NCBI GenBank assembly: GCA_027923505.1
Contig: BROI01000022.1
Location: 496,001 to 560,000 of the forward strand
DNA from: Mayamaea pseudoterrestris
Taxonomy: Eukaryota; Bacillariophyta; Bacillariophyceae; Sellaphorales; Sellaphoraceae
Length of the DNA: 64,000 bases
Direction: 5' to 3'
Shown: positions 31-39,774 of the stretch, one piece after another
How positions within the stretch are numbered: the first letter of the stretch is position 1
Layout: each line of letters begins with the position of its first letter
The notes under the pieces: generated by a model
The model's database searches: none
Told to the model about the DNA's origin: nothing
The model's input: the letters and a program-made list of their open reading frames with translations, nothing else
Program-made: the position numbers and the translations under genes

Positions 31-2142
31 TCACCGTCGACATGCTTTAGAAAGACGCACGGATCCGTCTTCGACTGCACCAAGTTCATGTGCTTCGCAT
101 CCTTGAGCAGCTTGATAAAGTACTGCTGCCACAGTCTCGACGCGTTCACTTGTCCATACTGGGTCATTGACAGACGAATGCAGTGTCGTGCGATTGAATG
201 TCCTTCCTTGCGACTCGCAATAGTCTTCGTAAAGGACTGGCGCCTCGATGTACAGCTCCGTCTCCGCTGGCGCTTGCAAGAATGCCGCGCACACATCGAA
301 CACTTCCGCCACTTTCCACACTTCCGTTCGCTTCGCATTGACTCGCTTGCCTGCATCCAACTGCTTCTTCTTGTATAGCGACACACCAAGATGAGTGCGG
401 ATTGATTGATCGACTGGCGTCGACGCAAAACTCTCTTCAAAATCAATTCCTGGCACCATTTCGTATCCAAGCACTGTATTCCTTACGCGCGCTTCAATTT
501 CCTTTGTGATCGGGTTCATCTTGTACGTAAAGACGTTCTTCGTTCCAAGTGTCTTTCGATTAGGAGGACGAGGGACTTCAGTCCACGCTTTGCCATCAAA
601 CTTGCCATACTCAATGAACGTAGGCTGCTCCCAAGTGGCTCGATTCTGCTCATTGTACGCCTCCCTCCAGTTCTTCGGGACAGGCGGTGGCGACTTGCCT
701 GAAACCACAGCAAAGACTAGATCTGCAAGGTTAACTGGATCCTCATGGTCACTTGTGATGGATCCTCCCTCCTCGATTGCAATCACGGGCGCGCCAGCCG
801 TGCCCTCCTCGCCGCTAACGTCGCCAACTCCGATAGGTGCGCCACCATGTGCAAGTTGTTCTCCAGCTTCGATCTCCTCCGTTAAATCAACCACAGCTCC
901 ACGATCAATCACCTCGTTTAGTACGCGACCTTGCATCAACTGCTGTCCATGGTCAACTTCGATATCAGCAGCTGAATCCCTCCTCAAGGGAGCACCACGA
1001 GAACGAGTCATGATCGGCGAGCGCATCGGCACATTGCGCGGCGGGCGAGGGCCAGTGCGCGCCGGCGCAGTCGTGCCATCATCCTCCACTTTTCCATCCG
1101 GAGGCATTCCACCATGACCAAAGCTCCCCAACGATTCATCGTCAGACTCTTCAAAGAAACCTTCTTCATTGCCATCATCGTCGTCTTCTGTACCCTTTTT
1201 AACGAAAGGATAGACCCACCGAACATCTTTTGTGGCAATCACTTTACGTGTGGATCGCTTGTAAACCAAGCACGTTTCTGCAGCGTGGCGTGGAGCGTGT
1301 CCCACATAAAAGCATTCCTCCGCCTTGGGGACAAAATGGCGTTGATTCACCATGGGGATCTTGTAATAACCACGCGCTCCAAAGGGAAGCAGATTCTTTG
1401 CTCGCACAGGCACAGTCTCTTTGAAAGGGGTGTAAGCGTCGGTATATCCAAGGCGCGGAATCAAATTGTCCTTTACCGTCGCCAGCTCGAGGCAATTTCC
1501 CCACAACGCCATCGTCTCAGCGTGGGTCAACTGATTCTCCTCAGCCATCATACTTGCGTGTCCCTTGTTGCGGATTGTTGGAAACGCTCTCTCCACACGG
1601 CCGTTCTGCATTGGCGTGTGAGGCGCCGTCTGCTCTATCTTGATTCCTCGAACCAAGCATGGCTCGACAAGCAGCTCCCATTCCGGTGCGTTGTCGCAAC
1701 GAAGAAAACGACAACGGAACTCCTTCGCCTTTAACCAATCAATCAACGCAACAATCTGCTCGGTAAACTCGTTCTTCTGAGCGCCAAAGTAGCTCCACTT
1801 GCGACGAGTTGCATCATCGACGATCAAGCACCAGTAACGATTCTTGCCGAGAGACTCTTTATACGGACCGCTCAAGTCGAGAAACAAACGCTCACCAGGA
1901 TGCTTCGCCTCTATCTCCGTCTTCTTCTTCACGTTCTGCGACTTAGCTTTCGCCTTCTCGCAAGCAACGCAAAAAGCCAACGTTCCGACAAGCTTCCAAC
2001 CAAATTGCTTCGCCATGAGCTTCAAGTGCGACATACCAACGTGTCCCAAGCGACAGTGCGCCTCGTTGATCTCCATTCGACGCATGGTCCGGCGAAGAAT
2101 CTTCCTTTTCATCATCGAGCGCATTACCAGCAGCTTCTCCAA
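31..2142 (-). mobile_element. Copia element part: GAG-pre-integrase, integrase core and start of reverse transcriptase
   Basis: The segment starts with an HCRLGH...C..C zinc-binding GAG-pre-integrase motif. An integrase core follows, with its first Asp in LDLSGP and its second in RCDNAPEW, and then a proline-rich, acidic variable region. It ends in the N-terminal part of a copia reverse transcriptase (NVFTYKMN, FEESFASTPV, FDVCAAFLQAP). The RT catalytic YxDD box is not in view. Family assignment is firm; activity is not expected. Confidence 0.85.
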
Positions 2143-2395
2143 GTGAAAGAGACAACGTGCGCTGCGTCTGCTCGTCTCGCGATGCCTCCAAGTAAAAAAA
2201 GTTTACCGTCGGGGTCACGCTCAAAGTTGATTCCACGCTCCCTTCCCTTCGTTGTTGTCCAAGCGACTCGAATACACTCCTTGCTCACCGACTTGACGAA
2301 ACATCCTTTATCCAAAAGCTTGCTCAAACTGATAATAGTCGTGCGGAAACTGCGCCATGATCGGTACCTCAAGACAAAACGAGTACCATCCTTCG

Positions 2396-4027
2396 TCACA
2401 GCGGCAAGTCTCCCATCTGAGTTGCCACGCAGCGAGTTCCATCGGCAATGATCAAGGTACGGTTGCAAGCCCTCAAGTTCACCATCGCATCAGCGCAATG
2501 GACTCCGTGCGTTCCGCTGCCCGAGTCCAGCATGTACTTGTTGTCGTAAGCTTCGTCGCGATCCGAGACTGCAAAAACCAAGTGCTTCTCCTCTTTGTCG
2601 ACCTTCGATCCATTGGTAAGTGAATTGTTGTTATCGATGCTCTCGTTCGGGCGTAACAAGACGGGCATCTCACTCGAATCATCGCTATCATATCCACTCA
2701 GATTGCGAGGATTCAAGCTCGGAATTGATGATCCGCTTTCAGTGCTTTCGTCGTCCCAATTCGTGTCGCACGGGACCGAATCGCCATCTTCGCTATCCTT
2801 GAAGAAAGACCAGTCATCATCGTCTTCCTCAATCTCCATGGTCGAGCGCTGGTTGCAAATCCATTCGAGCGCGCCCATTGGCTCTCCATACGGGGCTGAC
2901 GTCAGATGCACCTCCGTCGGCAGCTCACACGATTCCTCTGACGTCACTGGCACCTCCATCGACTGCTCCTCCATGACGGCCATCAACCAAGGATCCTCGT
3001 CTTCCGAGTCTTCCGCATTAGAGCGACTGCCTTGACTGTTGTTGCTCTTCTTCTTCGGGCACTTGCTAGCGTAATGACCCTTCTCACCGCAAACGAAACA
3101 GGTAACTGTCTTCTTCTTGTCGCCGTTTCCTTTGCCGCCGCCGCCGCCATTGTTCTTCGCGTTGCCGCCCTTCTCACCCTTGTCATCCTTCTTCTTGTCA
3201 GGACAATCGCGCTTGACATGACCAAACTTGTTACACTTGAAGCAGCGTTTCAATGGTGGCTTGCCAGGCCAAGTAGCTAAAGCCAAGTCGTCGCCTTTCT
3301 TGCCTCCCTTGCCGCCTGGGTTTCCGCTCACTTTCCACTCCTCGACAATCAACTCCTTAAAGTCCTTCAAGGTAAACGTTTCCTTCATAACGTTGCCGCG
3401 ATGAGCTGAGCAGAAAGGCGCCCAAGCTGTCGAGCGCTGGAGACACTGGAAGATGGTCGACTTCTTCTGGTTTTCGTCGTTCATGTACTTGGGGTCAACG
3501 TCTCCCAAGCGAGTGTTGGCAAGCTCAAGATCCGCCAACCAATCATGCGCCGTTGTGTAATTCCCCGGGACACAGTCAGAATACTCCTTCTGGAGCTGCG
3601 GGAGATCCGATATCATGTTGCCAGCCTCGAACTCTTCCTTCAGGAGCTCCCACATGGCAAACGCGGTAGTCTGCGCGCTAACTCGACGCATCAGGGCATG
3701 ATTCTCAATGCTATTGACGATAGCAGCTTGAGCTTTGGCGTTCATTTCATGGAGACGCAACTCTTGGGTAGTCGCTTCGCGAGTGGTTTTCGTCCCAGTG
3801 CTTCTCCCGTTCGAATCCTTCTCCTCCTCCTCAATTTCCATCATGAGGTACTCATCAGGACTCAACAACTTGTGCTTCGCCAACTTAGACAAGTCCTTGT
3901 TCACCGCACCGAGCGCTCCCAACCCTTCAATCAACGCGAGGATCTGCGGCTTCCAGTCCTTCCACGTCTCCTTCAACCCGTTCCACGGGACTTTGCGTAG
4001 GTTCTTGGCTTCCATGGTGCTTGGCAT
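2396..4027 (-). mobile_element. Copia element part: gag with two CCHC knuckles and the aspartic protease
   Basis: The gag region opens with an acidic/helical capsid-like segment and carries two CCHC zinc knuckles of the CX2CX4HX4C type (CFKCNKFGHVKRDC and CFVCGEKGHYASKC) separated by a Lys/Gly-rich spacer. An acidic stretch follows, and then the protease active-site motif LDSGSGTH, the form usual in copia proteases. The CCHC knuckles would bind the element's RNA for packaging. This is a fossil part, not a host gene. Confidence 0.85.
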
Positions 4028-4259
4028 CTTGTCTTGAATCCTTTCTAAGTCGATCGTTTTAAAACGTGTTAGAAAGTACGGTTGTACAATACCAAATAAA
4101 GACTCTGCAATTGCTAACGATACTCGATATTATGACCTTATTCTGCTGCAAAACTACAATCGCTCCTCTCGCATCTTCAAGAGGTATCCTCTTCTGCAAC
4201 TTGCCTCAAGTTGCACTCAATATAGAGCATAAAGTAGCCATTCGGGCTGACGTTTGCAC

Positions 4260-18690: not shown

Positions 18691-21600
18691 TCAGTTTTTA
18701 CTCATTAACTGTGAAGGTGGATTCTTCTTCTTCGCGTATGCTTCGGTCGTTGTTGTCTGGAGCCGTTCAAATACGTCTTGCTCTATGTATCCACTGGCAT
18801 TGCTTAAGGCTGTAGACAATGGCGGCACAACTGGTAACGAAGGCTCCTTGGATATCGCATTTCGGCTGGACGATATTTCTTTCGTGTCGTATGCGATTGC
18901 TTCAAGCTGCTTGACAGCATACGCCTGCGTTGTAGTTTTTTGCAAACGCTCAAACACATCCTGTTGCGTGTACGAAGCGAGTTTACCGCTGCATGTGTCT
19001 GCGTGACCTTTTGGAGAGTCGCGATCGCTTGCTGAAAGGCCAGCGTCGCTGTCACTGACGAGTAAATCATCGAGCAGTCTCGTCGCAGCATCACGTGGAT
19101 CAGTCCTTCCATAGTTTGAAGAATGAGGAGCATGGTGATCGTGCTCCTTCTCGTTATCGCTCTGCAGTAAGCTGTCAAGTTCTCTAGATGCGCGGTCTTT
19201 TTCCTTTTGAGCAGCAACATGGGTCGAGCGCGATACTGTGTAGTGTGATGGACTCCCGAGCCGATCGAAAACCGATTTGTGTCTCACGTCTGGGTTCTTT
19301 GGTGGTTTGCGGCTCGCATTGCTTAATGCACGAACACCGTTCTTTCCAATATCGTTTCGAACCACAATCTTTGAGAGTTTCTCAGTGACTTGCTTCGTCA
19401 TCGCCCGACGATTTGCCGAGCCGCGATTTGGACTGTTTCCCGATCTTTTTATCGGCGAAGGAGGGCTTGACAATTGCTCACCAGCAACAGGTGCTAGCGA
19501 GAAATCTTCATATTCGTAGGAGGTACCTTTAAGCGAGGGAGGTACTCTTCCTTCAGCGATAATCGCCAAGTCAGCCATTATCTCACTCGACCAATCGACA
19601 GGTTCGCTCCCACCGTCGCTATCAGAAGTATGCATTAGTTCGACATGCTTTTTCAAGCGAGGGGAGAATAGTCGATGCTTACTCCGACCTGTGCCAAATT
19701 GCCTTCTTAACGCCTTAGAGGCGGTCACCGAATGCCGAGCATGGAGAATATCGTCGACCAACTCGCAAATCGTATGAAATGTAGTCCTAAAATCACTCGC
19801 GCCGTCTAACTGCGTAGCAGTCAATTCACGTATTTGTCGTAAGACGGCGCGATGGTGCGCCAGGTCTTCTTGCTGTTCATCGTAAAGGGTCGACTTTTGA
19901 ACGTTAAGCGAGTTAAGTTCAGCTACCTGCGCGCGATAGTTGTCAATGGATTGATTTTCGGAACGCAACTCCTCAATCTGTTGCTCTAACAAAGAAATTT
20001 GTTCATTTGCAAGAAGCAGAACATTTGGTGCGATACGGTCGTCCGAACCAGTTGGTTGTGTCGCTCCAATTTCAGAAGTCTCCTTGACAATTCCCATCAG
20101 TGATATGATTTGCTCACGCTGAGCCTGCGTTAGCGATGCTATTTCTTGTCGTTGTTCCTCCATATACGACTGCAGTGCCGCTTCATTCCCTGCTGCTGCC
20201 TTTTCTGCTATCTGGGCTCGCTCGTCGAGCGAAGATGCCGTCCTTGCCAAAACCGATACACGCCGACGTTCTCGTACTATCATGCCAAACAATACGCGAG
20301 CAACAATAATTTTTGAGTGATTATCGATGCTGCCACCAAATATTCTCGCCAAATCCCCATCAAACAGAAAATTATCACTATTTGAACTGGACAGATCGTT
20401 CGTATCTCTAACAGGTTGCTTGTCCCTCCCAAGTCGTTGTGCTAATTGTCGGATACGACTTTCTTTAAACTTTATCTGGATTGACAATGACTCAACTTCT
20501 TCCGATCCCTCCCCATATGTTGCAACCGCTGCTTCACGATCGCTTGTTAATTGAAAGTGCTCTTCCCATTCCTCGGCAAGTTTATCAACGATCGCCTCCT
20601 TCCTTACGACAGAAGCCACCTTCTGGTCGAAATGATCGCGCAATCGGTCTACATCGACGTTACGTGATCGGGAGGACGCTTCATCCTGCCGCTTTTCTCG
20701 TCGTCCAACGAGTATGGGATCTAATCCAGCCTTTGCCATCACTCCCTTCTTTAGCGACAAAACTCGAACTTTCTTCTCTGCGTCTTTGTACTTTGACCGC
20801 AAATGCCCTAACTCTTGCAATCTAGCCTTAGCCACCTGCTGAGCCTTCTCCTTCTCAATCTCGCGTTGGTTTGACACTTGTTTCCATTTATTCAGCTCCC
20901 TGTCTTTCTGCATCGCATCTTTTTGGAACTGCTTTTTTTCGTTCGCAAAACTCTTTCGCTCTTCCACCAATTGTTTCTGCATGTCGACCTTCTTCCGCTT
21001 CATAGCCGTCACGTCATTTTGAAGTCGATTGATCTCAGCCAAGTTGCGAGATGAAACGGCGGTAAGATTCCGAAGTTCCTTTTGCTTCTTTCTCAAATCC
21101 GCAATGTGTCCTTCCTTTTCTTTTAACTGAGTTGTCAGATTAGTGTGTGACCTGTGTCCTTCCTTAGTTTTCTGCAACTCCAGGAGTAGCTTCTCTCGCT
21201 CCGCCTCTTTTGCGCTAAGCGTTGACTCCATCTGCCGTAACCGCTCGTCGTAAAAGTCTTTCATTCCCTGCAGACCATAGTTAAAAAGTTAGATACAAGA
21301 ATCATACCTCGGGCTGAGGAGTAGTAGGAGACAGACTGATGCATGCACTTACCGCATACTTCTCGTGACTGAGGCGCAACTGTTCTATCAAGTCCTCCTT
21401 TGCGGCGATGCTTCGGGAAAGTTCACTGAGGCCGGTCTCAAGCAGCCGATGACGTTTTGCTGGTGATTCCATAACTTCTTGCTCTTCTTCATCGTTCTCG
21501 CCACCCGCGTCCAACTCCTCATGATCTTCAAACGACTCGTTTCCACTAAGATACTTCTCGGTGAGCTTGTGGATTTTACTTTGTTCTTCAATCTCCTCAC

Positions 21601-23446
21601 GCTCGATTGCCTCAGGACTCGACTGATCATCCGCTGAGAGGGTCGACTTTAAACTAGCAAGCCGTTCCCTGTCAGCTTCCAAAGCTTTCCTGGCCCTTTC
21701 CAGCGCCAGCTGCTCTTGCTCAACGTCGACAGTCGCCCAAGCCATCTTATTAGCCTTTGACTCTGCATCACGTAGAGCGGCTTTTAACTCTCCAATTTCC
21801 GCTTCGTAACTCTTGGACTTTTCCAAAAAGGCTGCTTGCTCTGCTGAAAGGCTAACATTTCCGTCCGGAGAGACGACCGAGAGTTGTAACTTTAACAATT
21901 CGCTCTGAGCCTTGGCAACGTACAATTGCTCTTCTGCAGTATCGTGGTTGACTCTAGTCTCCCGAAGCTGTTCACGAGTTCGGTCAAGCTCCAATTGTAT
22001 ATCTTCCAGCTTTGAGTCGGTTGTTGGTGCCGAGTAAGCCCCGGGAGTTGCCGGCGGCATGGCCTTTTGTGGCGACATTGCACTTGCTAAACTAGTCGAT
22101 TCTCCGGATGCCAACGCTCTCAATTCCTGACGCGTAAATTGTAGCTTCACTTTATCTTCGTCCCAGCATTTCAGCAAGTCTGTTGCAAGCACTTGTATAC
22201 TGTTTTGCAGCTCGGCCACAAGCTTGGAGCTAGCATCCATGTTGACAACGGCATGATTTTGTATATTCTTGGCGCGATTGGCGTACCGCAGACAGTTCAA
22301 TGTTTCATCCAAATTGGACGAGCTCGGCGAAACGCAGGCAATCATGAGCGTCTTGTGGTTGCCACCCAAGCTTCCCTTGAGCAGACGCGTGAGTTTCGAG
22401 TCGCGATACGGAACATGCGTCTTGCCCCGCTGCTTGGGGTCGCCAAGTGCCGAAATAACGTTTCCCAACACCAAAAGACCCTTGTTAATGTCAATGCCTT
22501 CCTTTAGCCTCTTTCCTTCTGCTTGCGTTCGCTTTTGTCGTTCCGCGCCAGCCAAGTCTATAAAATTAAACTTGCTCCGCTTAATCTGCACATGCTCATT
22601 GTTACCTTGCGCATCGCCCTCATCGAGCACCACCGACTGCTCAATCAAGACTGACAGTATCGCATGCGACCGACTACTCGCCTCATTCATGGCGGTGGCT
22701 CCGGTGACGCGCCGCAGCTTGCCATGCGTCAACGCCCGCAACGCTTCCGTCGCCGTCGAAACTTGCTTCTGCGTCGCCCCCAGCACTTCGGGTTCACCGT
22801 CGGTTCCAACGTCGCGAATCGACAACTTGACGCAGTGGTTGCTCGTGAGCAAGTCGCGAATCTCTTCGCCGTAAATTTCCAGAAACTGCAAACGAATCAC
22901 GGACGTCTTTTCGTCATTGTTTAATCTGTCAAAGAGTGCTTGAATGGCGCGGGGAATGACGCCGGCGTGCTGCGAATCGCCAGCAACTGTTTCACTGCCT
23001 TCGTCGCCCATGATGGTGTAGGTTTTACCACTACCAGTTTGTCCGTAGGCAAAAATGGTTGCATTGTATCCCATCAAGCATGACTCGACGAGTGGTGCCA
23101 CGCAGGCACTGTATATTTGGTGCTGCGTTGACGTCAAGTCAAAGACTTGGTCGTAGGTGAATCGCGGCCCGCCTCCTGACACTTGCAGTGAACTGATCGA
23201 TTGCTGTTGCTGGTGCTGCACGACGCGAAGACAAAGGTCTGTGCCATCCTCCATGGCAAGCAGGGGACGAACTCGGACGGCAACCAAAACGCTGCTGGAA
23301 GCGTCGCGCTCCATAGTCATGGGTGCGGCGGCTGTTTCTAAAGCATCATCATCGTCTTGTATGGTTTCATTTTGAAGTTGATCTGCAATGTAGGATTCAT
23401 TCATCGAGTCATTCTCGGGTGCATCTTGGTCCATGGGAGCGCTCAT
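18691..23446 (-). CDS. Kinesin-4-like motor protein
   Basis: Two exons (21353-23446 and 18691-21267) joined in phase 0 across an 85-nt intron, 1556 residues. The motor domain is N-terminal (about residues 52-410): P-loop GQTGSGKT at ~135-142, switch I NEASSRSHAI, switch II DLAGAERQKRT and the SLGGNHKTLMIACVSPS stretch. Neck and stalk are long coiled coil. Blocks such as LTAVSSRNLAEINRLQNDVTAMKRKKVDMQKQL and a second helix rich in KQVSNQREIEKEK resemble the KIF4/KIF21 stalk, so kinesin-4 (plus-end motor on spindle or other microtubules) is the best fit. The C-terminal ~350 residues are disordered and contain repeated DVFERLQ-type motifs (separate finding). Start is the ATG preceding an acidic leader; stop is TGA. 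Confidence 0.88.
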
Positions 23447-23934
23447 TGTTTAATGGGTTGATGATTGTTGCGTCGAAAGCGGTAGGGAGAGAAAAATAGA
23501 GGGCTCGTCGTCCTCTAAATGACATGCGACTGAAACAATGATGAATTTTCTATGTTTATATAACTTTATTGTAAAGGTGAGACGAAAAGGTCTTCCGATG
23601 GACTTGGTAGCGACGGCTCAACCGCCATGGTGGAAGTGATCGTTCATCCATGTGAGCGGAGTGTTGTCGCTTTGCGAGTCGTAACGGCATCGAAACGTCA
23701 CTCCCAACTAACGGTGCGACATGAAACGCTCCACGCGGCAAGACCGTCCATCTTGCTCCACCATGACGCACATCTTTGTGCAGAGCTTGGAAAGAGCAGA
23801 TCTTTGGTCAATCTTTGCTGCTGAACTCAAGTAGCCAAGGTACAAGCCGATTGACTCTACCTAGATAAAGTTTTAGTTGCTTCATCTCCAAGACTACAAC
23901 CAATATAACCATAAAGACTCTATCAAAACACAAA
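23447..23934. promoter_or_regulatory. Divergent intergenic region
   Basis: 488 bp between the kinesin start (minus) and the GET4 start (plus). No convincing gene, repeat or RNA seen. Shared promoter inferred from geometry. Confidence 0.35.
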
Positions 23935-32687: not shown

Positions 32688-35600
32688 TTAGTCTTCCCGC
32701 TGAGCGTCGCGTCGACTAATGTAATCGACTCTCTTACCGTCGTCAAGAAGAACGTCCCTGGCGTTCTCCAAGGCCTGGAATATCGTTTGAGCATCCTCGC
32801 TCTCGTTCTTGTCGGGGTCAAACAAATTAGCAAGTTTACGATATGATTCTTCAATGATTCCGACAGGAGTTTCAGTATTTACGTCCAGCAGCTCGAAGTA
32901 ACAAACTTCAGTATCGGCGAGGATCAAACGGATGCGAGCCATTTCCTTCTCTTGAATACTAGCCTTAATTTTGGCTGCCAAAGGTTCCTCCTTAGCAGAA
33001 TCATCTCCCTGCCACTTTCTTCGTACTCCAGCAAATGATTTCTCTAACCGCTTTCGTCGTTCACTGAGCATCTTCGCTTTTATGTTTTTGACACCCGACG
33101 AAAAGACTCGATTTGTGCCTTTCATCCCGTTGAGTTCCTCGAAAAATAACATGGCTTGTTTCTGTCTATCACCATCCAACATCGTCTCCAAGCATGTATG
33201 TGAACGATAGTGCAACTCTTCCTTCTCATTGACTGCCTCCAGTCGCTTTTTAAACTCATTTGTGGCCATCGCAGACCGTTTCTGATCTAGGTGCTTCCAG
33301 CGCTTTTCACCGTTAATAATGCCACGAATCTCGTCACCCGACAATCCAAGATCATTTGTAAGCTGCTTGGCATTGATAACCATACTGTAAGATCCGTCTG
33401 CACCTTGCCGTGCACACCGCCCCTTAATCTGAGTCTCCTCTGACGCATCTGAAGAGAAGAATGCTTGGATAACGTGGACACCTCCAGCTTGCAACATCGT
33501 CTTGTCTAGACATTTGAAGTCTGTCCCACGCCCAAAGTCGCGGATCATCAGCGTTATTGCGCCTCTTGTCGTCGCCTTTTGGAACAAAGTTGTACGCTCA
33601 TGCAAAGGAGCACTTTCCGTAATTGTTCTTGTCTTACTTTTGAGCACTTGCATATAGGACGACTCATAAAAATCTAACAACGCTCGTTTAGATTCAAAGA
33701 AGACCATGACGGGGCGGTCTACCTCCTCGAGACCTCGTCTTGTCATAGTACGGCGACGGTGGATTTCATGCTTCAATTCAAGAAAGTGGTCTTCTCTCTG
33801 GCTGCAAATAATAACATCTTTGGCAACGGAATGTGAGACTCCATTCTAGCATTGTATCACGATCTCTGCTTGCATGGGACAGTACTCACCGGTCGCCGAC
33901 TCTGGAGCAAAATCGAGTCTGTTTTCGCCAAACACAGATGGAATGCACGAATATTTGAATATGTCGTATCGATCTTCCAGCACGCAGCGCTCTTCCTTAC
34001 TAAGAGCAGAAAGAGTACCAGTGACACCAAGAATCGCATCATATTCAAATGGGATTTCGGCGTTTGACAAGCGAGCAATAGCAGGACACAGGTTCACCAT
34101 TGAGTTCATGGTTGCTTCGGTGACATTGCCGATTTCGCACTCCTTTATGTATGCAAAACTGCAAAATGAAGAACAATAGTGAAAGGCCAAACCGTCGAAC
34201 ATCTAGCGATAAAAATTAAATGGAGTCAGGGAATACATCAGTTTTTGTGAGAGTTTGTCAGTGGACGCGGCATGTCATGTCTCACCTTGTAGCCAAGTAA
34301 TCCATCGGATACAACATAGTCGGCTCCTATTCCATCCCTTAAACCCTTGGCCGAAGCAACTAGCGGTTTGATTACCTTCTTCAGAAGTGGGTGGGCAATA
34401 CTAGGAAATCCAGCGAGAACATTGGTCACCTCCTGCGACGCCAGCAGCGATGCAGTCGTCAAGTTGGATGAGTTCTGCCACACATGTTGAAACAAGCGTA
34501 CGATCGAGTCATTGCATAGATCTAATCCAAGGTTACGTTCAGATCCAAAAGAGTTTGGACCAAAAAATACGTCAACTTCATCGACAAGCAATACTCGAGG
34601 ACGTGTTTTGTCATTGGGAGCCAACTCCCGGGCGCCGTTGGCCGTGCCGGTGAAAGCCTTTCTTGCAAGCTCACAAAATCCTTCAATGGAATCTGTCATC
34701 AACTTGTCGATTGTACCATAGGATATGTAGTCTTCGACTTGAAATGCTTGAAACAAAGGTCGGAATGCAGCAATATCTCGATCACTTAGATATTTGCTGT
34801 AGCAAACGCAGCATACTTCGTAGTCCAGGAGTGCGAGCACAGTCGCTGTCACGCCTAGCACTACCGACTTGCCTTCGCCAGTTTTCAGCTCCAGCAAATG
34901 ATTTTGCAGTGCTCGTTGGTCCTCTTCAATCACATTCAACAAGGTCAAAATCGCCACGACTTGGGCGGGATGAGGCTTCATCAGAAAATTTGTTTTTGTT
35001 GTGGTCAGAGCAAAAGCATTGCTACTTTTTAGAGACCAATATGCGAATGTATGCGAAGACAACGCAATTACTTGAGCCTCATATGTCAAGGAATTATCCT
35101 TCGACAACTGCATAGTTGCTTGGGCCAAGTCCGCGAGACTGTCAGTCCTGACGGTTAAAGCCTGCGAATTCGCATTGGAGCTAAACCGGCTTCCAAGATG
35201 CGCAGTAATTATACTGACGTACAATTCTTCAAAGTCTTCATACATTGATCTCAGACGTGACGAGCTCTTGCTGCTCAGGCTTAGGCCACTGATTACATAA
35301 GATATATCCTGACCAGCGGTTGCATCGTTGAATGCCGCATGTACCGCACCCTCAAAGCATTTGTGATCGGTAAGCAACTGCTGGCCAATATGCCCATCAT
35401 CATCCTTATCAAACTTTTGGAGAGCAAGTGAAAGATCAAGGAGGAAAGTGGTATTCTCCGAAGCGGACGATGCCATCTCAATAAATTGATCGATGCTTCT
35501 GTCGATTGTTAGTCGCCAACATGGAACGTCGCGGCTAGCTGTTTTCAACAACACGAGACCATTGACCATATCATTAAATGGCAATGACAAACCAATGGAG

Positions 35601-38600
35601 ATGTAACAGTCAAGCGCTTCACGCGCCGACTGAAAAGTACCTTCGCGATAGGAAAGAGACAGACGAGCCAGAGTCGGTTGCACCCTCGTTAATGCCTTTT
35701 CGATTGACTGCAAATTTCCGGAGAGAGCATATATGCAGCTAAAATTAGCCTTGTTTGTTGGAAATTTAGCGCAAAGACACGTTAGCTCGCGTCCTGCAGC
35801 ATTGATCTCTGCTTCAACCTTCTGTACGACCAGCGGATACAGATCCAGCACCCTCGACCCTTCATCCATATGCTCCTTTAGCTCGTGGACGGTTTGAGCA
35901 GCAGTCATGATTGCTACGATATCCGCGTAAAAGGTCTCTCGGGCATCTTCGTTAACGCAGGCTAGAATTTCGTTGAAAGATAAGCCGTGGATCTCCTTTT
36001 CCAGCTGGACTACTTCTAGTGCAGCATCTTCTTGAAGAATCTCCAGCTTTGGCCATGTAATGAGGCATAATTGTAGAGCTTTTAGTTGATGAAAATATCG
36101 ATCGGAAAGAACGAAGCTAACATCAACATTGCAGAAGGACGCGAAAGTTGAATGCAGCTTCTCAGCGTTCTTGTACGCCGACAAAATTCGACCAAAGTTT
36201 CCAAAGCTTCGTTCACTCACTTCTTTTCTGGGAGTATCTTTTAAACTCCTGATACAGTCTGTGACCGCATTAAGCGCTTCACACAGATGTTTTTCGAAAG
36301 CAGTGCGATTTTTGAATGTAAACAGAGACTTCAAGAGGCTGGAGTCCTTTGGTAACTGAACAAATGCAAATAGGAGACAAAGGGCAGGATGGACGTCGTC
36401 GTGGCCCCTCAAAAGGGACATAAGTTGACTTAATGCATTGCCTGTTGCACTGAGGCGCTGGACGATCCATAGTGCTTGGTTTATCTGCCCATAAAAATGC
36501 CGAATCAATGCTTGCTGAGCGTTCGTCAGTTCAGAACGTGCAGTGTTCATACCAAACAAACTTCTCGCGTTATTCATAAACCCAGACATAACGCCAGACT
36601 TCTGTGTTTTGATGACTTCACACCAAAGGTCCCAGTGTTCCGGCTCACTTAATTCCACCAGCAGCTTTCCAGCATCTTCGTTCCCGCATTTGAGGCGATG
36701 TAGTAGCGAGTTTGCCGCCGAAGTTGCATCTTGTAATCCGCGAACAAGATTCTGCGCTTCTTCCGCCAATGCGTCATCCAGCAAAGAGTGCTTTGAGATG
36801 CTCAACGAAAGAGATTCTTGAATGCATGTGGCCTCCATATCGTCGAAGCCTTTCCATTTGACGATTGTTTGTAAGCCACGGCGCACACAGCAAAGCGTTG
36901 CCCCAATAACATCCGACTCTCGTTTTTTCATACTAATGTCAGCAGTCGACTCAACGATTTGGCCAAGTTTCTTTCCACACAGTTTTGTAATTCTTGCAAG
37001 GTAGAGCAGCGTGCATGTATCAAAGTCTTGTACTAGCTCTAGCCAACCCGATAAATTTGGGAAACAAACGCCTGGAGCTTTTAAAGTCTCCTCGCTCGAT
37101 GCGAGACGCGACAGAAGGAAGGCACGGGCACATCCAAGATACTCAAAGTCGATAGTCTCGCATGCTTCGAAACAGCGCTTAGTGTCAGCAAACCCGTGAC
37201 AGTCGCTGACAAACTTGCTCAGGGCAGATTCTGCTCTCTCGCTCGCCTTGCGCAATGATGTCATGATGAAACTAAAAACATCGTGATAAAACACATGGGT
37301 CCGCGACTCAACGATCCTCTCCCCGGCAAGAAAGTCGCTAAAATTAGCAGCTAGGTCAATGCAGGCTGCATTGTTGTCAACAATAATAGGAAAATGGTAT
37401 GGGTTGTTGCTAATTACCGCGGCGATGTCGGTAAGAGTATTCGTTACCCAAGCCACGCCCATGTCGATGTTTCGTGTCATGGCCGCTCTGACTGCCTCGT
37501 CCAAAGCTGTTCCTCCAAATGTAAGACTTAGAACCTTCAGTCGCAAGATTGAACTGAAAAGTAACTGCTGGCGCAAGCCAACATACTCTAACCCCTCGCT
37601 GCAAGCCTTCGCTGTATCCGCGAGCAGTGCATCGGTCAATGTTGCGCTCACCAACCGGATAACAGTCGAGAGCCTATTTCGGGCAGCAGTGATTCCACAA
37701 ATATCTAACAACGGAGCGAATAGAAGCAACCCGTCAAAAGTTGTCTTGACCTGCATAACATAATGCGCAAAATCATCATTGAATCTACCGAGGACGTCTC
37801 GGGTCTCGCTAAGCAGAACGTTCGAGCAACGATCGAATGCGAAAGTCACAGCCGACGTTGCACGGATCCAAAAAGGGTTAATGTCGGGCATTGCAGTTGC
37901 GAGGCGATCAAACAGTGCCATTAATTCCAGAGCTCGAGGGAAGTCGCGTTCCTCCAACGAAGCCGAAACTTGTTCCAAAAAGTCGTAGAGTTGCAGATGC
38001 AATTTTTCCATCGCCATTTTCGACTTGCGATCCTTTATGCTCAGGCGAGGATTGTCAATACAGTTTAAATTCCCTTTCCATAGGCTGCGCAACAGGTCCT
38101 CGTAATTCCCCTCTTCCAAATCGACGCATCGAGCGCACGGAGTCGTTTTAACAATCATATCGTGGACAAAACTCGAAAGCATCTCATTAGCGGCGTCAGC
38201 ACCACAGCGCTCCCTGAAGAATTTAGTCAGCTTTAAGTGAAGACGCTTGGCGTCTTTTGGTCCGCACTTCGTGAAGACATACCGGAAAGGAGCAAAACCA
38301 CCGGATTGCATACCGTCAGCAAAGATACGATTGTACGCGTCGAGTGCGTCCGACAATAATTTGCAACGACCCGTTGTCAGTTCAGGAACGCTCATTACCA
38401 AGACCGGTCGTACGCTCTTAGCTTTGCGGAGAGCAGAAATAATGCCTGTCTGGTTTGCTATTTCCATCTCCACCCCAGAGGTGTCGAGGAGTCCGGGGAC
38501 GTCACAAATTACAAGTGCCTCTCCATCAATGCTCGTTTGCACAGCTTGAATCGTGCTAGTTACTGATGTTGTACCGGACGCAACGGCGAAGCCTGCAAGA

Positions 38601-39774
38601 TTGGGGGGAGGATCTCGTGGTAGAAAGTGATCGTCACCGTCGGCGTCTTCATACTCAAAGCCTACACCGCAAAGATGCAGGAGAGTCGAAGTCTTTCCTG
38701 AACCCGTGTTTCCAAGCAAAAGCAAGATGTCTCGCCCTTCGATTTCGTCCGCGGCAACCTTGTTCTTTTCCAACAAGATGCAAAGCTTTGTAAGGTCCAC
38801 CACGTCCTTTTGTGCAGCATGGCTTTTGCCTCTGCTATCGCTGTAATTGATCTCGTCAGATATGGCAGAGCCGTCAAAATCCAAAGCGCCGCCTGATTGT
38901 TCTACCTCCATTGCAACAGTCACTGACTCTTCTCCATTGCGTTCCGAAGTTCCCGCCGCTTCCCAATCCATCTCACTTGAAACTGTATGTTGCTTGTCAG
39001 GCGAACCATCAGCGAGAACAGTGACTTGCGGAACCATTTCTCCGCATGGCGAAAGTTTCGCACGACAGTAGTCTTCTTTGACGTCCATGCCGTCGTATTT
39101 AGCAGGCTTGCCGATCTGTCGGTGAATCAAAGAACTTTCCACCTGGTGGCCCGCTTCAGCGAAAGCACGCTTCGCCGTGACATCGTTTGTAAATTGCTTG
39201 GTCACCATAGCCGCATTCCAGTGTCCTTCCAAAGTAATTTTCTCGCCATCAAACGGGCTCGCAATTGCAGCACCACTATCGCTCGGCCCATCTGCATGTT
39301 TACTGTTTGGCGCAGCTCCATCGCCGACTCCATGTACAAACGGAGATTCTTTATAGCAGTATTGACTGTGATAGTTTCCTTCCTGTTTAGGGGATTCTCG
39401 TCATCGATCGCACCTCCCGAATCGGTGTGATCTCCGGATGTTGCTACCGGTAAGCCAGATTCCTTGCCCGCAGCCAACGCGCCAGGAAGGAGCACCTCGC
39501 CCACCAAATTCGCACCGCCATCCGTCGCATCACCCAGCTTGACTGTACCCGCAAACTTGACACCAACTGCCAAATCATCAGAAATTTTGGTGTCTTCCAA
39601 CGACGAGATCGCTCCATTATTCGCCGAGCTTACTTGAACTCCCAGCAAACCTTCCTCCATGCTTGAGGATGCATCGCCAGCAGCATCCATCATATCAACA
39701 TCCTCCGCATCCGACGAGATCACGACTGGCTCGTCGTAGGAGCTCCAGCTCTTGTCGTCTTCAATCTCAACCAT
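32688..39774 (-). CDS. Giant GTPase / SecA-like motor / J-domain composite protein
   Basis: Four minus-strand exons: 39448-39774, 34286-39382, 33890-34202 and 32688-33838. Introns of 65, 83 and 51 nt keep the frame, giving 2295 residues. The N-terminal ~300 residues are acidic and disordered, with no signal peptide. A P-loop GTPase domain follows: G1 GNTGSGKTS at ~332-340, then ICDVPGLLDTSGV (G3, DxxG) and a FTKCG element where the G4 should lie. About 1,200 helical residues have no recognised motif. A SecA-type DEAD motor starts near 1600 with ELKTGEGKS (Walker A), VDEVDVFF (Walker B) and ILGVTGTL. The second motor lobe has GRGTDFK and KGRCARQGADG, equivalents of the SecA GRGTD and GRSGRQG motifs. 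The end is J-domain-like (ELLDVNTE...YRKLANLFDPDKN) with DPD in place of HPD. Ends in TAA. The domain order is very unusual; function unknown. Confidence 0.82.

Follow-up and report, generated by a model that had tools for sequence, protein, structure and literature searches.

The gene lies on the minus strand of a 64,000-nt window (the whole stretch of DNA analysed), which covers positions 496001-560000 of contig C22 in the 30.6-Mb, 41-contig assembly of Mayamaea pseudoterrestris. It starts with an ATG at 39774 and ends at 32688, and splicing yields a single frame. The predicted features, in window coordinates and with their basis in brackets, are:

32688..39774, minus: whole gene, ATG to stop, 2,288 aa (splicing script and relatives)
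39774-39414, 39348-34286, 34202-33890 and 33817-32688, minus: four exons (splicing script, relatives)
39349..39413, minus: intron 1, 65 nt, alternative 39383-39447 (splice-site reading)
34203..34285, minus: intron 2, 83 nt (splicing and public protein P0001)
33818..33889, minus: intron 3, 72 nt (P0001 and relatives)
38738..39774, minus: acidic, Ser-rich N-terminal region, residues 1-324, containing intron 1 (sequence)
38123..38737, minus: TRAFAC-type, AIG1/GIMAP-like GTPase domain, residues 325-529, with P-loop, DVPG and FTK (profile and fold)
38713-38690, minus: GNTGSGKT P-loop (motif)
38503-38480, minus: DVPGLLDT (motif)
35003..38122, minus: middle region, ~1,040 residues (530-1569), helical by sequence (between the GTPase and motor HMM matches)
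33354..35002, minus: SecA-type motor, residues 1570-2067, with NBD1, clamp (PPXD) region and NBD2, crossing introns 2 and 3 (profile, fold)
34882-34865, minus: TGEGKS (motif)
from 34582, minus: DEVD (motif)
34028-34014, minus: GVTGT (motif)
33536-33519, minus: FGRGTD (motif)
33422-33402, minus: GRCARQG (motif)
32904..33353, minus: long scaffold-like helix and linker after NBD2, residues 2068-2217 (model, tail alignment)
32721..32903, minus: J domain, residues 2218-2278, DPD for HPD (Pfam, alignment)

The gene has ordinary nuclear neighbours in the window, including genes for cytochrome c1, transketolase, kinesin, PPR and ubiquilin-like proteins, which agrees with its earlier assignment to the nucleus. 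Reverse transcriptase, integrase and gag-type matches, spread over two reading frames, mark a copia-type element at 31-4129 (minus strand). At 18691-23449, also on the minus strand, a kinesin motor ORF precedes one that carries a KIF21A-like domain, and the two are probably one split kinesin gene.

A sequence-only reading of this DNA had placed a GTPase, a SecA-like motor and a J domain in one gene. All three were recovered in one frame after splicing, and the strand, the gene ends and the named motifs were found where that reading had put them. Its estimate of ~2,300 residues compares with 2,288 aa for the spliced product with a 72-nt intron 3. Among the three in-frame introns that it proposed, those of 65 and 83 nt were retained, whereas the 51-nt intron (33839-33889) is better read as 72 nt, because in P0001 ESAT runs directly into DVIIC and the relatives pick up again at DVVIC, DVKLC or DVILC. 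The predicted model is least secure in exon 1 and intron 1. Two 65-nt choices exist for intron 1 (39413-39349 and 39447-39383), besides further in-frame GT-AG pairs, and N-terminal comparison with relatives, in which similarity was weak and limited to other diatom N-termini, left the choice unsettled. Translation might also start inside exon 2, without intron 1.

The search for relatives recovered the gene's own product, MPSEU_000923500 (P0001). This public model begins at an internal Met, residue 415 (window 38467), so that the deposited protein lacks the GTPase P-loop. Such a late start could suggest that two adjoining genes had been read as one, but this is extremely improbable: the GTPase, the middle region and NBD1 all lie within one open exon, and the same chain is carried by Seminavis P0005, Thalassiosira exigua P0006 and the MMETSP-derived P0002, the last of which runs from the GTPase through NBD2 in a single frame. 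The relatives thus support the predicted single chain.

Residues 1-300 contain 54 D/E vs 20 K/R, and this acidic N-terminus fits the earlier claim that there is no signal peptide (the leader was judged by eye). The following domain shows the P-loop, DxxG and GTPase fold of a TRAFAC GTPase in sequence and model. Its Pfam AIG1 match lies below the cut-off of 27 (3.7e-4; 20.3 bits for the whole protein, 24.8 bits for the domain), and a weak AIG1 match was obtained in 9 of 9 GTPase segments scanned. GIMAPs are among the tied fold matches of the GTPase model, but HflX and Nog1-type GTPases match equally well (VIA list), so the modelled fold does not resolve GIMAP kinship. Guanine specificity of the predicted GTPase is not assured, because Mayamaea has FTKC as its fourth GTPase motif. 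The weak sequence match and the comparable fold are shared with AIG1/GIMAP GTPases; those, however, are small proteins, whereas here the domain is one part of a giant. The middle region measures 990-1,059 aa in nine diatom-clade sequences (two of them from the Mayamaea gene) and is longer in 90 other relatives, at 1,474-2,150 aa (median 1,627). P0132 (Seminavis robusta) and P0131 (metagenome), of 1,267 and 1,383 aa, share the GTPase region and have no SecA motor.

Pfam SecA_DEAD passed its cut-off of 24.6 on the spliced protein (7.4e-10, 39 bits). The motor has the hallmarks of the SecA superfamily, namely a two-lobed NBD1/NBD2 ATPase core, the SecA motifs and a PPXD region between the lobes. 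Solved SecA structures were the nearest folds to the motor model, with identities of ~14-20% in structural alignments. Profile and model together establish that the predicted motor is homologous to SecA across NBD1, the PPXD clamp region and NBD2, and then in a long helix, modelled with 42 residues. Beyond NBD2, about 90 residues of the model align within a stretch of ~220 residues in SecA; this part is thus shorter than in SecA, and the helical wing is probably missing, judging by the lengths alone. A generic helicase was ruled out by the SecA profile and the fold of the motor core.

SecA is the textbook motor of export in bacteria and plastids, and diatom secA is usually plastid-encoded. A separate canonical SecA (E 1.3e-94) with a leader-like N-terminus was found in the same genome, on the 724-kb contig C18 (G000:C18:182794-184030, L001/L002, minus strand, at least one intron). 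Export therefore does not need the giant protein. This chromosomal copy deserves a check, given the usual plastid location of the gene. The SecA part of the giant, which had been expected to stand apart from plastid SecA, was placed apart from the leader-bearing SecA that this genome also encodes; the motor trees and this second SecA rule out plastid SecA as its identity.

Giants with a GTPase, a helical region and a SecA core, reaching ~3,000 aa or more, were found in rotifers, ciliates, Hexamita, Diplonema, Arcella and a few bacterial MAGs. With a threshold of E <= 0.01, the motor search yielded 247 proteins. Further work used the best 120 of these, which came from diatoms, the rotifers Rotaria, Adineta and Brachionus, Hexamita, Tetrahymena, Blepharisma, Arcella, a gammaproteobacterial MAG and numerous metagenome contigs. 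P0121-P0134 were added from two further searches, one of which brought Diplonema and Epithemia. These searches detect only relatives with exact words in common: in one of them, run with a J-bearing query, P0001 and P0006 went unlisted, so J-tailed proteins outside diatoms may have escaped detection.

Domain content was counted with local HMMs built from members of the set itself (10 GTPase, 8 vWA, 4 J and 8 motor seeds) over the 134 proteins and the spliced query, 135 in total. GTPase, motor and vWA occurred together in 81, motor and vWA in 27 and GTPase and motor in 12. Six combined GTPase, motor and J (the query, its own record P0001, P0003, P0005, P0006 and P0007). Five had the motor only, two the GTPase only, one the J only, and one had motor and vWA with a doubtful J-like match. 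Hence a vWA domain follows the motor in 109 of 135 by this HMM, which missed P0111 and P0128, both called vWA by other annotations, and a J domain follows it in 6 of 135, with the query counted beside its own record. Among the 134 relatives examined, a vWA domain forms the end of 108, and the J tail was found only in five proteins, all from one diatom clade. A J-like match in P0112 (2.8e-5, before the motor) was judged to be chance, and P0129 is a different J protein rather than a family J member. Pfam vWA exceeded its cut-off in P0080, P0089 and P0111. In three bacterial members no Pfam vWA match was obtained at E <= 1, so the call there rests on the family HMM and a DATGSM motif.

The sequence-only reading knew of no described system with this domain order. 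The order is not peculiar to the Mayamaea protein: GTPase plus SecA is the norm in a broad family, with vWA as the usual tail and J as a diatom variant. Because relatives from other genomes keep the order, its conservation is more than chance. The Mayamaea protein itself has the GTPase upstream and the SecA core downstream, as in the giant family, but carries J in place of the C-terminal vWA. Literature searches within one collection found no paper describing the GTPase-SecA-vWA/J architecture by title or abstract; this widespread protein family is apparently undescribed. A genome search with P0001 gave, besides its own gene, three weak matches to the J part only, indicating a single copy in Mayamaea.

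The first motor tree comprised 138 rows; L009, L020, L023, L024 and short segments were left out. The eight diatom-type proteins P0001-P0008 formed one clade (SH-aLRT 100), and five canonical SecAs formed a separate group. The named diatoms in this clade are Mayamaea, Seminavis and Thalassiosira exigua, and the others are diatom-type by the tree. The five J-bearing rows interleaved with P0002, P0004 and P0008, whose predicted proteins end before the J position. In a second tree of 48 hand-picked rows, run with a careful search, the diatom clade and the five canonical SecAs each received 100/100, and the diatom clade was nested among vWA-tailed proteins. Common descent of the predicted Mayamaea protein with the vWA-tailed giants is shown by sequence. 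In an alignment of 14 tails, the common sequence ended after one helix, to be followed by either vWA or J; the part shared with vWA-type relatives ends inside residues 2068-2217. Given the nested position of the clade, replacement of vWA by J at this same boundary, a putative domain swap, is the simplest history. P0128 of the diatom Epithemia clementina (3,449 aa) is a vWA-type giant outside the J clade.

Pfam DnaJ passed its cut-off of 27.8 on the spliced protein (2.9e-9, 37.3 bits). The HPD histidine is needed for Hsp70 stimulation. HPD is kept in the four best J-bearing relatives (P0003, P0005, P0006 and P0007), whereas in Mayamaea a GAC codon turns it into DPD. The proposed Hsp70 recruitment is accordingly plausible for the clade and doubtful in Mayamaea itself. 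Additionally, the Mayamaea J match was weaker than those of the relatives (4.1e-12 vs 1.6e-28 to 1.7e-37, the latter being seeds of the J HMM). Both features would suit a family that works elsewhere and a decaying local copy that is losing its function, but the frame is open across 2,288 codons and the P-loop, the SecA motifs and the arginine-finger region are intact, making decay improbable.

Scanning of GTDB contigs gave 61 pattern stretches, of which 8 were confirmed as loci. Three of these are in Chlamydiae MAGs and two in gammaproteobacterial ones; Legionellales, Actinomycetota and Marinamargulisbacteria MAGs hold one each, the last being weak. L004, L005 and L010 adjoin genes for dnaE, aconitase and a Na+/H+ antiporter, and these contigs therefore look bacterial. 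Next to the giant gene of the Legionellales MAG, L004:15846-18179 encodes a protein that combines ankyrin repeats with a PARP-type domain. In the order of this MAG, 2 of 36 genomes matched at 1e-10, one of them more strongly than 1e-20; in the Chlamydiae phylum, 5 of 116 did so, two of them more strongly than 1e-20.

We tentatively favour, with somewhat less than even confidence, a cytosolic single-chain polypeptide-handling machine of the giant SecA-motor family. The GTPase would act as a nucleotide switch for dimerisation or docking, and the middle region as an arm or scaffold. The motor would clamp an unfolded polypeptide and drive it by ATP hydrolysis as SecA does, unfolding, extracting or remodelling cytosolic clients instead of pushing them through SecY. 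The C-terminal domain would be a client adaptor, a role taken by vWA in most members and by an Hsp70-coupling J in diatoms; in Mayamaea, DPD may mean that the coupling step is lost, altered or decaying. Here, polypeptide handling is inferred from the SecA core, the switch from the GTPase and the adaptor from the tail. The SecA profile and fold, the retained catalytic motifs and the same architecture in independent relatives argue for such a machine, as do the tail exchange at one boundary, HPD in four relatives and the separate export SecA. The ~14-20% identity to SecA, the shorter post-NBD2 region, FTKC and DPD argue against it.

A factor of cell-autonomous immunity or host-symbiont conflict is a less likely alternative. 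A GIMAP-like GTPase would sense or coat an intruder or its compartment, the motor would dismantle foreign proteins, and related genes would have been exchanged with intracellular bacteria. The weak AIG1/GIMAP likeness in sequence and the GIMAPs among the tied folds are consistent with this, as are the patchy occurrence, with rotifers and Hexamita holding many copies, the U-box or GBP-type domains of some relatives, and the presence of bacterial members in MAGs of Legionellales, gammaproteobacteria and Chlamydiae, one of them next to the ankyrin-PARP protein. However, the gene is single-copy in Mayamaea and kept across pennate and centric diatoms, GIMAP kinship is not settled by fold, and the PADLOC matches among three proteins scanned were weak (mads_8, 6.7e-3; PDC-M43A, 3.9e-3). 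With these two matches only, assignment to a defence system was rejected.

Toc GTPases belong with AIG1-like GTPases, and SecA and J proteins both serve import. An import or extraction motor at the complex-plastid membrane or ER, uniting a Toc-like GTPase, a SecA motor and J-recruited Hsp70 in one chain, could be imagined on this basis. It is very unlikely, since rotifers, ciliates, Hexamita and bacteria all have family members but no such plastid, no leader was seen by eye, and the plastid-like SecA is a different gene.

The cytosolic machine can be set beside known systems. SecA and SecA2 of bacteria and plastids share the NBD1-PPXD-NBD2 core, the motifs and the long helix after NBD2; here, however, the motor sits inside a giant chain with a GTPase and J or vWA, the post-NBD2 region is shorter, and a very long branch separates the motor from canonical SecA. 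Midasin/Rea1 is a giant motor with a C-terminal vWA built on an AAA+ ring. The non-diatom relatives resemble it in combining a giant motor with such a tail, but they have a SecA core and a different chain, with only a P-loop match in common. In large DNAJC-type proteins, too, a J domain sits at one terminus of a large and otherwise unrelated chain; the Mayamaea protein differs in DPD and in having a SecA motor as partner. Planctomycetes and other bacteria possess secondary, likewise non-housekeeping SecA_DEAD proteins linked to type I secretion genes, for which the accessible part of that report mentions no GTPase, vWA or J fusion (PMC4452313).

More broadly, and with slightly greater reserve, the family may be a class of non-secretory, non-plastid SecA-motor threading engines across eukaryotes and associated bacteria, GTP-switched and with an exchangeable C-terminal adaptor. 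Diatoms would have exchanged vWA for J and gained Hsp70 coupling, a link that Mayamaea might be losing or re-using. The role of the machine may be either proteostasis or conflict with intracellular bacteria. If true, giant eukaryotic proteins with a SecA threading core outside export would represent a second, unstudied use of the motor. The natural vWA-to-J swap offers a direct experiment on the role of the C-terminal adaptor, and the family would allow a test of whether a SecA-type motor can unfold or extract proteins away from a membrane channel.

Two scans of viral contigs gave 1 and 7 pattern stretches and confirmed no relative, and on this ground a viral or mobile origin was set aside. 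For P0123, a shorter vWA-type relative, there were matches to 4 Listeria phage records (24.3% over 33% of the protein) and to 12 plasmid records; of the latter, several carry a SecA or SecA2 annotation and two come from Euplotes-associated symbionts. Plasmid CP113870.1 of Candidatus Megaera polyxenophila (Euplotes culture) encodes a SecA-like protein of ~5,225 aa (L039:347-16024) with HEAT-like repeats, a SecA core that includes a preprotein-binding match and, close to the end of the protein, a weak RickCE-like match; its gene adjoins a second SecA-like gene.
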